Shown here: piece after piece, positions 4,535 through 10,549 of the stretch
Layout: every line of letters starts with the position of its first letter
How positions within the stretch are numbered: position 1 is the stretch's first letter
Source of the DNA: Streptococcaceae bacterium
GTDB taxonomy: Bacteria; Bacillota; Bacilli; Lactobacillales; Streptococcaceae
NCBI GenBank assembly: GCA_031285775.1
Contig: JAITVN010000028.1
Span: 1 to 38,720 of the forward strand
Length of the DNA stretch: 38,720 nucleotides
Direction: 5' to 3'
The notes under the pieces: model-generated
Told to the model about the DNA's origin: nothing
Databases searched by the model: none
Seen by the model: only the letters and a program-made list of their open reading frames with translations
Position numbers and translations under genes: made by a program

Positions 4535-5203
4535 ATGATAGATACAGCTTCAATTTTCGGTTTTTTTGACAAAATAAATGTTTTGTTCAAGACATTTGCG
4601 CAGACACCGTCTACTCACATTTGGATTTATATTGTTTTAGGACTGCTCATCTTTGTTGAGACAGGACTTGTTATTTTTCCATTTCTACCAGGAGATTCTG
4701 TTCTTTTTTTTGTTGGCGGTCTGGCCGCTTTATCCAATGGCAAGTTGAATATTATACTCTTGATTGTCTTAATGGGTCTTATCGCTTTTTTAGCAAATCT
4801 GGTCAACTATGAAATCGGGCGTCGATTCGGCATTGTGATTCCGAAAGTGAAGTGGATCAGCCGAATTTTAAAAGCGGAATATTTAGACGAAGCGCACAAA
4901 TTCTTTGAAAAATATGGTGCTTGGGCAATTTTTCTTGGCCGCTTTATGCCGATAATCCGTACCATTGTACCTTTTGTAGCAGGTACAGGAAAAATGCCGC
5001 AGAAGAAGTTTATCCTATTTAATCTCTTAGGCGGCTTCTCATGGGTCATTGTTGCTCTGGGCGCCGGCTTTGCCTTTGGGACAAATGCTTGGGTGCAAGG
5101 ACATTTTGAAATCATCATGATTGCGATTGTTGTGATTTCTCTTCTTCCTGCGCTGATTGGCGGTTTCTCAGGCTATATGAAAAACAAGAGGGCGCGCGCA
5201 TGA
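4535..5203 (+). CDS. DedA family membrane protein
   Basis: [36 protein letters not shown] motifs of DedA/SNARE-associated proteins. Confidence 0.88.
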
Positions 5204-6267
5204 AATTGAGAGTAGATTTAGCAGGAAAGTCACATTCTTATGATGTGCTGATTGAGCGCGGATTGCTTGGATCTGTGGGAAAATGGGTCTCTAGCCTTTG
5301 GGCAGCTCAGAAAATTGCTGTAATTTCGGATGACTTAACCGCCTCTTTTTATGCTGAAAAAGTCATGTCGAATTTAGACAAAGCGGGATTTGATGCCTCG
5401 CTTTTTATCTTTCCTTCTGGAGAAACTTCCAAATCCATAGCAACTGCTGAGGCGGCTTGGAACTTTTGTGCTGCGCAGGCTTTGACCCGCTCAGACGGAA
5501 TCATTGGACTGGGCGGCGGCGTTGTTGGTGATCTGGCAGGATTTGTAGCCTCAACTTATCTGCGGGGGATTCATTTCCTGCAGATTGCAACATCATTAAC
5601 GGCTCAAGTAGACAGCTCAATCGGCGGAAAAACTGGACTGAATGCTGCAGCGGCTAAAAATATGATCGGCAGCTTTGCTCAGCCTGATGGCGTTCTGATA
5701 GATCCTGATGTATTAGCAACACTGGATGAGAGGTGTTTGCGCGAAGGCATGGGCGAGGTAATCAAGTGTGCCCTGATTGCGGACGCTGAGCTTTGGGATA
5801 AATTGGACAAGATGTCAGGAAACGATATTCTTGACAATGCAGACGATCTGATTGCTTATGCTGTGAACGTGAAGCGCAAACTTGTCATGGAAGATGAATT
5901 TGATAATGGTTCGCGTTTGCTGCTGAATTTTGGACATACGATCGGCCATGCACTTGAGGCAACTGCAGGTTTTGGTGAACTCATGCACGGCGAGGCTGTC
6001 AGTATCGGCATGGTTCAAATGACGCGAGCAGCAGAAAATAAAGGTCTCGTAAAAAAAGGCTTGACGGATAAAATTTCTGACATGCTGCATAAATTTGGAC
6101 TCCCTGTCTCATATGAACCATGGGAACCTGGAAAAATTTACCAGAGCCTGATGCATGATAAAAAGCTGCGCGGGAAAACGATTCAGACAATTCTCGTGAC
6201 AGAAATCGGAAAAGCTGAAATACATCCGATTGAGCTGAATGAAATGATGGATTACTTGAAAAAATAA
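5200..6267 (+). CDS. aroB: 3-dehydroquinate synthase
   Basis: [43 protein letters not shown] motifs. Confidence 0.95.
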
Positions 6268-6295: not shown

Positions 6296-7231
6296 ATGTT
6301 GATATACATAGGATTAGCCTTGATTGCCGGCTTTGCCTTATCCAATCAGGGCCCGATAAATTCCAGTCTGAAATATAGGATTAATTCAGCACTTTGGTCT
6401 GCTGTGACGTCACAAACTGTTGGCGTGCTGTTGCTGGCGATTTTCACCTTGTCAATGAGCTTGGGACTTTTTATGCCCCTCTCATTTGTCATGACACATC
6501 CTTGGTGGATTTGGATCGGCTGTTTCATTGGTCCTATTTACATGACCTTTAATATTTACCTCTTTCAGAAGCTGGGTTCGGTTCAGGCTGTGATTCTACC
6601 GATTCTTGGACAAGTTATTATGGGTGTCCTGATTGATAGTTTTGGATGGTTTGATCAAGCGAAGCTCCCGATTTCTGGAATACGAATGATTGGGATTCTC
6701 GTGAGTGTGCTGGGGATTCTGATCGTGGTGGTGCTGCCCAATCACCAGAAAAATGCGACAAAGACCGCAAGCACTCATCCTGCTAAAATTCTGCTGTTTT
6801 GGCGGATATTAGGAATTTTCACAGGTATACTCATCGCTACCCAGCAGGCAGTAAATAGTCATTTGGGAATGCTTGTCGGAAGTTCAGTGAAAGCTGGCTT
6901 TTTGTCATTTTTCTTGGGTTTGCTGCTGATCTTCTGTGTCTGTCTCGCAATTGAAAGGAAATTTCCAAAAAAATCGAGCTTTCGGCAAGTTAAGCCATGG
7001 AATTTCTTAGGCGGCCTTTGCGGCGCTGTTTTTGTGGTTGCCGTCATCATTGCAGTTCCTAAAATCGGGACTGGACTGAATATTCTACTGACTCTGGTGG
7101 GACAGATGATCGGCTCGTTACTGATTCAGCAGTTCGGCTGGTGGAAATCCCCTAAAGAAAAAGTAAATCGCGAACAAATTTTGGGCGTCGTTGTCATGAT
7201 ATTTGGTATAATTTGTATAAAGTTTATGTAA
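6296..7231 (+). CDS. DMT superfamily (YdcZ/DUF606-like) transporter
   Basis: Ten-TM protein with two homologous halves (NQGPINSSL.., QQAVNSHLG..GSSVKAGFLSF). Confidence 0.75.
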   Translation: MLIYIGLALIAGFALSNQGPINSSLKYRINSALWSAVTSQTVGVLLLAIFTLSMSLGLFMPLSFVMTHPWWIWIGCFIGPIYMTFNIYLFQKLGSVQAVILPILGQVIMGVLIDSFGWFDQAKLPISGIRMIGILVSVLGILIVVVLPNHQKNATKTASTHPAKILLFWRILGIFTGILIATQQAVNSHLGMLVGSSVKAGFLSFFLGLLLIFCVCLAIERKFPKKSSFRQVKPWNFLGGLCGAVFVVAVIIAVPKIGTGLNILLTLVGQMIGSLLIQQFGWWKSPKEKVNREQILGVVVMIFGIICIKFM

Positions 7232-7254: not shown

Positions 7255-8181
7255 ATGGATTATATTTCTTGGATTCGTTCCAAAGTCGGTCATGACAAAG
7301 TCTTTATGAATTTTGCTGTTGCCATGATTCGCAATGGCAAAGGTGAAGTGCTGATGCAGCAGCGTGGGGATTCAGGTCTCTGGGGATTTCCTGGCGGCTG
7401 TATTGAGCTGGGTGAGACTTTTGAGGAGGCGCTGCGTCGCGAAGTCTACGAGGAGACAAGGATTCGTGAGCTTGAAATCATTCATCAGCTGGGCAGCTAC
7501 AATCGTCCCGAATTTGTCTATCCGAATGGTGATGTGGCGCAGTGTATCGATGTGGTTTATATCTGTGACTTGCATGAGACAGTGGATTTGAGCTACCGTG
7601 ACTCGGAAACGATGGATCTGCGTTGGGTGGATTTGTCACATCTGGATGTAGCACTTTTTAATCCAGATTTTGACCGCACAATAAAAGATTATTTGGACTG
7701 GACAGGTCCGAAGAGCCAGGAAGATTATATCGGCTGGATCCGAAGTAAGGTGGGACATGACAAGATTATGCTGCCCAGTGTGGTGGCGCTGATTCGCAAT
7801 GACAAAGGTGAAGTTCTCATGCAGAAGCGAGGAGACTCTGGCCTATGGGGGCTTATCAGCGGATGTATGGAGATGGGAGAAAGTTTTGAGACGGCCTTGC
7901 GCCGTGAGATCTTTGAAGAGACTGGGGCACAAAATGTACGGATTGTCCAGCAACTGGGGATTTACAACTGGTACGATTCTCCGCAGCATTTTCCGAATGG
8001 CGATGTGGCGCAGTTCATCGACACTTGCTACGTATGCGAGTTGACCGAAGCAATCGACTTGTCCTATCGGGATGAAGCTGGGGAAACTTTAGAGTTGCGC
8101 TGGGTTGGTTTATCAACATTAGAACTGCCTTTGTTCAATAAAAATTTAACAAAAGTGATAGAGGATTATCTGGAATTATGA
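7255..8181 (+). CDS. Tandem-Nudix protein (two fused Nudix hydrolase domains)
   Basis: Two full Nudix domains, each starting DYI(S/G)WIRSKVGHDK. Nudix boxes GCIELGETFEEALRREVYEETRI and GCMEMGESFETALRREIFEETGA. GGAGG upstream of ATG 7255. Confidence 0.9.
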   Translation: MDYISWIRSKVGHDKVFMNFAVAMIRNGKGEVLMQQRGDSGLWGFPGGCIELGETFEEALRREVYEETRIRELEIIHQLGSYNRPEFVYPNGDVAQCIDVVYICDLHETVDLSYRDSETMDLRWVDLSHLDVALFNPDFDRTIKDYLDWTGPKSQEDYIGWIRSKVGHDKIMLPSVVALIRNDKGEVLMQKRGDSGLWGLISGCMEMGESFETALRREIFEETGAQNVRIVQQLGIYNWYDSPQHFPNGDVAQFIDTCYVCELTEAIDLSYRDEAGETLELRWVGLSTLELPLFNKNLTKVIEDYLEL

Positions 8182-8594
8182 ATCTATTCCAAAACCTAGA
8201 CGGGACTTTGATCGACAGCTACAATGCTTTTTCAAACTGGTTGGATGGCAGCTTATCTGAAAAATTACCTGACGAAATCATGGCAGTCAATTTTAACTTA
8301 TATGAAAGCTGTGAAAATGAGTACTGCATTGAATTTGTAGGCTGTAGTAGATTTGATGCTCAAGATGATGATTGGGCTTGCGATGAAGTATTTGCGACTA
8401 GAGAACATCCATATTTACTTTCTTCTGTGGCTGATGATGTTAAGTGGGAAGAAGTGCTAGCTCTGGCTGTTTCATTGATAATGAGCTACTTGAGTAAGGG
8501 GAGATTTTCAGGAAAACTAAAAAAATATAAAGCCCTAGCTATTGGCTTTGTTGATGGCGATCTTGAAATACTTTATTCGAATATACATTTTTGA
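8178..8594 (+). CDS. Immunity-protein-like hypothetical protein with an N-terminus resembling a HAD phosphatase
   Basis: ATGA overlap with the Nudix stop. First ~18 aa (MNLFQNLDGTLIDSYNAF) resemble the HAD start at 8614; the remainder (FVGCSRFDAQDDDWACDEVFATRE...GFVDGDLEILYS) looks like polymorphic-toxin immunity-type proteins. Confidence 0.6.
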   Translation: MNLFQNLDGTLIDSYNAFSNWLDGSLSEKLPDEIMAVNFNLYESCENEYCIEFVGCSRFDAQDDDWACDEVFATREHPYLLSSVADDVKWEEVLALAVSLIMSYLSKGRFSGKLKKYKALAIGFVDGDLEILYSNIHF

Positions 8595-8613
8595 TTAAGG
8601 TGGAGATGAACTA

Positions 8614-9207
8614 ATGAATTTTATCTGGGACTTGGACGGGACTTTAATAGACAGTTACGATATTTTTGTCAAGGCGCTGGAGGCGACTTTTCGCGATTAT
8701 GGCTGGGACTTTGACGCGGCGGCAACGCGCCGATATATCCTGAAGTATTCGTCGAATCAGTTCTTGAAAGAGCAGCCTATCCCCTTTGATGAGATTCATG
8801 AAAAGTTTTCAAAATATCAGATCATGTGGAATGGCGAGATTCAGTTGATGGAGGGAGCAGGTGAAGTTCTTGATTGGACAAGGGCGCAAGGTATTCAGAA
8901 CTTTTTGATCACGCACAAAGGTAATAATACTTTTACATTGCTAAATGAGCTGGCAATTGCAGATTACTTTGAAGAGCTGATCACAGGCGCTTCGGGCTTC
9001 GAGCGCAAACCGAATCCTCAGTCCGCGAATTACCTCATCGACAAATACGATTTGGACAGGAAGTCTACTTTCTATTTAGGTGACAGATGCCTAGATATTG
9101 ATTTTGCACACAATGCTGGCATTCGTTCAATCAACTTTTTACCAGCGGAAAATTCTTTGCAAATTCATAAACTTACAGACTTGATAGAGTTTGATTTTTG
9201 GAAATGA
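8614..9207 (+). CDS. HAD superfamily hydrolase (phosphoglycolate phosphatase-like)
   Basis: DLDGTLIDS motif I, ITHKGN, YLGDRCLDIDFAHNAGI motif IV. Confidence 0.88.
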   Translation: MNFIWDLDGTLIDSYDIFVKALEATFRDYGWDFDAAATRRYILKYSSNQFLKEQPIPFDEIHEKFSKYQIMWNGEIQLMEGAGEVLDWTRAQGIQNFLITHKGNNTFTLLNELAIADYFEELITGASGFERKPNPQSANYLIDKYDLDRKSTFYLGDRCLDIDFAHNAGIRSINFLPAENSLQIHKLTDLIEFDFWK

Positions 9208-9212
9208 TGTCC

Positions 9213-9338
9213 GCTCTGACAGCCGCCCCATTTATCTGTAGTGAGTGCTCGCGGAGCTTTTGTTGCGCTACTTCTAGGTTCAATTTTTTCTTCCTGCGGA
9301 AGCCTTCATTTACAGATAAATTGGGCGGCTGGCAGAGC
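9213..9338. repeat. 28-bp inverted repeat (26/28 matches) enclosing ~70 nt with internal hairpins, upstream of aroC
   Basis: gctctgacagccgccccatttatctgta (9213-9240) pairs with tacagataaattgggcggctggcagagc (9311-9338). Loop contains gctc-gcg-gagc and cttcc-tgc-ggaag. Confidence 0.85.
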
Positions 9339-9382
9339 TAGGCGAACTTTGGCTTATTTACTGAGTAATGGAGAATAAAAAT

Positions 9383-10549
9383 ATGAGATATTTTACAGCG
9401 GGCGAATCGCATGGTTCGCAGTTGACAGCCATTATTGAAGGGGTTCCAGCGGGTCTGAAACTGACCTGCGAAGACATCAATATTGAGCTGAATCGTCGAC
9501 AGGGCGGTTACGGACGAGGTCAACGCATGAAGATTGAGTCTGATCAGGTCGAAATCAGCTCTGGCGTGCGTCATGGTTTGACGCTAGGTTCGCCGATTAC
9601 GCTGACCGTAGCCAATCGCGACCACAGCAACTGGCGCGAAGTGATGAACGTTGCAGATGTGGATGATGAGGTCAAGCTGAAAAGGCGAGTGACCAAGCCG
9701 CGTCCAGGACATGCAGATTTAGTCGGCGGTGAGAAATACGACTTTACAGATTTGCGCAATGTGTTGGAGCGCTCAAGTGCGCGTGAGACGACAATGCGCG
9801 TGGCTGTGGGAGCAGTAGCGAAGAAACTTTTGTCAGAGCTGGGCATCGAAGTGGCACACCATGTCGTAAATTTCGGCGGCATTGAGATTGAGCTTCCGGC
9901 GGACTTGACGGTTGGGCAGATTCAGGAAACCGCGCGGGTCAATGACTTGTCGATTGTTGTTGATTCACAGGCTGGGCAGATCCGCGACTATATTGACCAA
10001 GTTAAACGAGACGGCGACTCCATCGGCGGGATTATCGAGGTTCGGGCGGAAAATGTTCCAGCTGGATTGGGTTCCTACGTTCAATATGACCGCAAGCTGG
10101 ACGCTAAAATCGCTGCAGCGGTCGTGTCAATCAATGCCTTCAAAGGCGTCGAATTCGGACTGGGCTTTGAAGCTGGCCACAGGCAAGGGTCAGAAGTCAT
10201 GGACGAAATCATCTGGTCTAAGGAAAAAGGCTACAGTCGCGCCAGCAACAATCTCGGCGGCTTTGAAGGCGGCATGACCAACGGAGAGCAGATTATAGTG
10301 CGCGGCGTCATGAAGCCGATTCCTACGCTGTATAAGCCGTTGATGTCTGTAGATATTGAGACGCATGAGCCTTACAGAGCCAGTGTGGAGCGTTCAGACC
10401 CGACCGCTTTGCCTGCGGCGGGAGTTGTCATGGAGAATGTGCTGGCAATTGTGCTAGCTCAGGAAATCAGTGATAAGTTTAATTCTGATACGATGAGCGA
10501 GCTGATTGCTGCGCTTGAGCAGTATCGGACGCGGATAAGGAAATATTGA
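9383..10549 (+). CDS. aroC: Chorismate synthase
   Basis: [36 protein letters not shown] motifs. SD-like tggag upstream of ATG 9383. Confidence 0.95.

Follow-up and report, generated by a model that had tools for sequence, protein, structure and literature searches.

A captured gene start: a gene of an unnamed family fused in frame to a repeated HAD 5' end in a Streptococcaceae bacterium

We analyzed a 38,720-nt stretch of a Streptococcaceae bacterium contig (JAITVN010000028.1; hereafter, the window) and found that an open reading frame (ORF) lying between a Nudix gene and a HAD hydrolase gene joins a second copy of the HAD 5' end, in frame, to the body of a gene from a protein family that has no name. 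The capture of the HAD start is well supported as an event. It is evident from the repeated 5' end, the fusion itself, the membership of the ORF body in the family, an uninterrupted Nudix-HAD pair in a relative, and the intact conserved residues of the chimeric product.

The ORF sits in a cluster encoded entirely on the forward strand, in the order aroB, YdcZ exporter, double-Nudix, 138-aa ORF, HAD, and aroC (Table 1). An initial annotation of this DNA had placed the ORF at 8178-8672, an end that we correct to 8594, and had recorded that its start overlaps the stop codon of the double-Nudix gene as ATGA, which we confirm (8178-8181). The gap between the HAD gene and aroC (9213-9338) contains an inverted repeat of 28 bp with 93% complementarity and 70 nt separating its arms; partial copies occur on four other contigs of the same genome, as in a MITE-like element.

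Table 1. Features of the Nudix-HAD locus, in window coordinates
Feature	Coordinates	Strand	Basis
aroB	5200-6267	+	Gene order in the window
YdcZ-type exporter gene	6296-7231	+	Gene order in the window
Double-Nudix gene (two fused Nudix domains)	7255-8181	+	Pfam NUDIX, two stretches, E 2.9e-43
Chimeric ORF, 138 aa	8178-8594	+	Open reading frame; every family-invariant residue kept
Left copy of HAD 5' end	8178-8231	+	39/54 nt; firm homology at codons 7-15 (8196-8222)
Body of unnamed family (residues 15-138)	8220-8594	+	Acquired; 36% GC; alignment with relatives
AAGGTGG, Shine-Dalgarno-like	8597-8603	+	Read from sequence; putative role for the downstream HAD gene
HAD-IA hydrolase gene, intact, 197 aa	8614-9207	+	Pfam HAD_2, E 7.6e-26; 59% identical orthologue in same-genus genome G003
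Right copy of HAD 5' end	8614-8667	+	Heads the intact HAD gene

The two copies of the HAD 5' end are direct repeats flanking the inserted gene. Over their first 54 nt, the ORF and the HAD gene are identical at 39 positions (72%), reproducing the count in the initial annotation. No other non-self match among all 54-mers on both strands of the window is as good: the value lies 7.6 sd above the background mean (14.0, sd 3.3), and the runner-up reaches 29/54. The similarity begins exactly at both ATGs, with none upstream, and fades after codon 15-18. Homology is firm across codons 7-15, which encode LDGTLIDSY in both copies (22/27 nt, 9/9 aa), and codons 3-6 of the left copy have little in common with HAD (5/12 nt). 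As had been noted, the left copy carries Asn where HAD has its nucleophile Asp (D6). In the core, left and right copies agree at 19 of 24 nt, about as well as either agrees with relatives. Both copies begin ATGAAT and lack one codon found in relatives (MTTFIWD), and both gene starts contain TAy-rAt-nnn-TTT (Y-[ND]-x-F). Because Y15-x-x-F18 also corresponds to the start typical of the captured family (MYxxF), the homologous N-terminus may comprise 14-18 residues; the duplicated end proposed earlier is thus a real match whose 54-nt extent may be shorter. A DNA motif for DGT-[L/I]-[L/I]-D-S occurs at two sites in the 2.26-Mb assembly (completeness 89.8%), namely the two gene starts, and we therefore reject the idea that the left copy came from another HAD paralogue. 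A control pattern had 0 occurrences in the same assembly.

Residues 15-138 belong to an unnamed family: a scan of one genome per species yielded 31 genome loci that encode relatives, to which 8 plasmid matches were added. Nearly all of the genome loci match from residue 15 or later (two begin at 7 and 13); the plasmid relatives are 34-47% identical, and some match from residue 10. Most family members start near residue 15 (MYxxFxxWLD), and others bear unrelated extensions (MGLFRKF, MALFGFM, MGFFDKF). The LDGTLIDS N-terminus is absent from every member inspected; none of these homologues, then, has such an N-terminus with no HAD gene adjacent, an arrangement that the initial annotation had held to count against its reading. 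Hosts include Clostridia, with Ruminococcus among them, Bacteroidota, Pseudomonadota, and one verrucomicrobium. In an alignment of 28 sequences, W21, F39, N40, D60, W66, and G123-F-V-D-G127 are invariant. The chimera keeps all of them and by this measure fits the unnamed WLD/FNLYE/GFVDGDLEI family, so its body appears to be an intact family member. Of the 297 genomes examined from the bacterial family, only that of the window has the gene, the other 296 lacking it; at the level of the phylum, it is found in 2 of 399. This rarity, coupled with an AT-rich body (36% GC versus 45% in the window), leads us to conclude that the gene was acquired. Residues 15-138 are thus an acquired member that looks intact. 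A phage origin was set aside, as neither phage records nor viral contigs gave a match. At two other loci (L013, 7290-8348; L084, 1084-1842), the family domain is fused to N-terminal regions that have no Pfam match and look alike by eye.

Relatives of the window preserve versions of the locus that lack the newcomer. In a genome of the same genus (G003, locus L035), the Nudix and HAD genes overlap by ATGA with nothing between them, which places the left copy of the window in the ancestral, Nudix-coupled position. The single Nudix gene of this pair is 77% identical to Nudix domain 1 of the window and the HAD genes are 59% identical; the gene upstream of the pair differs from that in the window, and the wider context is another one. 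A genome from a different genus (G011, g8) has the order aroB, YdcZ, Nudix, DUF1054, HAD, and aroC, and the slot before HAD has therefore held other genes. The proposal that an ancestral Nudix-HAD pair was invaded is accordingly supported by the same-genus pair, with the qualification that in genus g8 the slot is filled by DUF1054. The Nudix genes of relatives have one domain and that of the window has two. Window domain 2 shares 59-61% identity with domain 1, which is no more than it shares with the Nudix genes of other species; a recent internal duplication as part of the same event is unsupported, and from sequence comparison the two domains probably did not arise by one. In a related genus, a Nudix gene that shares 75% identity with domain 1 (L073, 1483-1971) is flanked by hisA- and hisF-like genes, each joined to it by an ATGA overlap, and this Nudix gene therefore also moves between operons.

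The present state of the chimera is consistent with a functioning gene. We infer that its translation begins at the ATG overlapping the Nudix stop codon and is coupled to that of the Nudix gene. The earlier claim that the newcomer took over the HAD start codon together with its coupling holds for the start, which occupies the Nudix-coupled position, and is probable for the coupling. Across codons 7-15, LDGTLIDSY differs from HAD by 5 synonymous and 0 nonsynonymous changes (P 0.0005-0.003 if neutral), and the captured segment looks kept. Either this divergence dates from a time when both sequences headed HAD genes, or the segment has been constrained within the chimera; judging by the four altered codons adjoining LDGTLIDSY, enough time seems to have passed for the latter, and the segment is probably under selection. 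A structural model predicted from 22 family sequences (mean pLDDT 88.5) contains one helix spanning residues 7-27, in which the former HAD residues would form the first turns of family helix 1, lengthening it by about two turns. We predict that the chimera is a working family member.

Several accounts of the repeated 5' end can be weighed against these data. That the N-terminus of the ORF merely resembles HAD through chance or convergence is very improbable. The motif DxDGTL is widespread, codons 3-6 fail to match, and unrelated N-terminal extensions such as MGLFRKF occur elsewhere in the family; against this, the agreement at 39/54 nt is in the same codon register, lies beside the HAD gene itself, and exceeds the runner-up among window positions by 10, and the motif appears at no third site in the assembly and is missing from the homologues inspected. 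We consider chance resemblance ruled out by the match statistics. The account we favor, to which we give an even chance, is that an insertion left the HAD 5' end duplicated as a long target duplication. A gene of this horizontally moving family would have inserted at the Nudix-HAD boundary of the conserved aroB, YdcZ exporter, Nudix, HAD, and aroC cluster, leaving the HAD 5' end in two copies. The one upstream would keep the ancestral ATG overlapping the Nudix stop and be fused in frame near HAD codon 14-18, at or next to the incoming gene's own start, and the downstream copy would head the intact HAD gene with AAGGTGG as its own ribosome-binding site. PMC3031569 reports "long and variable target duplications" where restriction-modification genes have inserted. 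In the cases of Nobusato et al. (2000), cited there and in PMC4978471, a gene likewise sits between genes of the chromosome, with long direct copies of its target on either side and the neighbor intact. Those cases concern mainly restriction-modification genes, whereas here the gene is a single one from an unnamed family and the left copy is fused in frame as a new N-terminus. Against a target duplication, the two copies are as diverged as copies from different species, which is more than a recent duplication would give; at 72% identity over 54 nt, they stem from an old event or from no duplication at all. The poor match at codons 3-6 and the onset of similarity at the ATG, with nothing upstream, also count against it.

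Homology-facilitated illegitimate recombination would explain the locus with no duplication and is a serious contender, though we put it at somewhat short of an even chance. Incoming linear DNA carrying the family gene and a diverged HAD gene would have recombined by homology at one end (on the HAD or aroC side) and joined by microhomology at HAD codons 15-18 at the other, with the start of the native HAD gene surviving as a stub; the HAD 5' ends would then be alleles of two strains. The between-species divergence of the copies, synonymous in the core, agrees with this route, and the shared TAy-rAt-nnn-TTT offers a plausible microhomology. The locus also looks mosaic, since Nudix domain 2 resembles domain 1 no more than it resembles the Nudix genes of other species. 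PMC3240628 describes this route in S. pneumoniae, where junctions show 3-10 bp of microhomology, and in A. baylyi; in those cases, as proposed here, homology anchors the foreign DNA at one end and microhomology joins it at the other. The host of our window also belongs to the Streptococcaceae. Such events are usually accompanied there by a deletion of similar size, whereas none is visible here within HAD; pertinent to this point, the slot before HAD may have lost a DUF1054 gene. Counting against the route, the shared ATGAAT start and the shared missing codon suggest that the copies have a closer common origin with each other than with G003, and the HAD gene is closest to its same-genus orthologue (59%), as expected if it is native. 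Divergence thus favors homology-facilitated recombination and the shared start features favor a nearer common descent; both mechanisms fit the data.

A second gene-start duplication was found at the locus of a Verrucomicrobiaceae relative (L020), where the order is a DUF1553 gene, the family gene, a 63-nt copy of a DUF1501 5' end, a YhcG/DUF1016 nuclease gene, and the intact DUF1501 gene. The two copies (8376-8438 and 9553-9615) are identical at 54 of 63 nt and arose independently of those in the window. As this duplication flanks the YhcG gene and not the family gene, it illustrates the kind of event rather than the same event. In contrast to LDGTLIDSY in the window, the copy that is out of use has five nonsynonymous changes among its nine changed codons. 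Other direct repeats near family genes (L010, L028, and L064) look intergenic and were set aside as candidate gene-start duplications.

What the captured protein does is a matter separate from its arrival. The initial annotation had called the ORF body immunity-like and suggested an orphan gene kept against the toxins of neighbors, a reading that we consider unlikely and in effect a guess. In its favor, the protein is small and acidic, and the family is patchily distributed across phyla and partly plasmid borne. In addition, one member (L005) is fused at its C-terminus to a SUKH-1-like domain (E 4e-4, below the curated cut-off; folded from a single sequence, the fusion reached a pLDDT of 36), and a SUKH gene lies about 2 kb upstream of another (L069); these SUKH signs are weak. 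The orphan immunity genes treated in PMC10539506 are likewise small, acidic, orphan, and patchy, but the chimera differs in having neither a recognized toxin among the neighbors scanned nor a match to a known immunity family. Searches of Pfam, NCBIfam, PADLOC, and PHROGs with the 28 aligned sequences gave no match at E 0.01 or better, and hence none to a known defense or immunity family; isolated matches at E 0.03-0.1 are not meaningful. A PDB sequence search gave no match for the family, and a PDB fold search returned nothing at E <= 0.001, its matches being weak and poorly superposed (best E 0.1). The immunity-like label therefore finds no match in any of these resources, and the sub-threshold SUKH-1 fusion is the sole hint toward it. 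Also against immunity, no recognized toxin was present among the selected neighbors scanned at family loci, no LXG toxin gene was found in the genome, and in many Ruminococcus genomes the family gene occupies a conserved site. At these loci (L015-L032, about 7500-9500), it repeatedly lies between iorA-like and iorB-like genes, which we take to encode the two subunits of indolepyruvate oxidoreductase, and several have a repeat-rich ORF downstream. The immediate neighbors of family genes are mostly housekeeping genes. By sequence, the chimera is not a HAD hydrolase either: Asn replaces the nucleophile, and it does not match HAD.

The mechanism is of a known type, the family that supplied the gene has no name, and the event is moderately interesting. 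With its invariant GFVDG, its presence in several phyla, its lack of a name in Pfam and NCBIfam, and no PDB fold match at E <= 0.001, this conserved family merits attention. It is a speculative and rather unlikely generalization that insertions duplicating a 5' end at overlapping gene starts form a recurring route for single mobile genes into operons, by which they would gain a start codon, coupled translation, and an added N-terminal helix, with the segment then kept by selection. The locus does record clearly, as a fossil would, how one acquired gene could lodge in a tightly overlapping operon with neither neighbor broken, and how the start of a host gene was turned into part of an unrelated protein.
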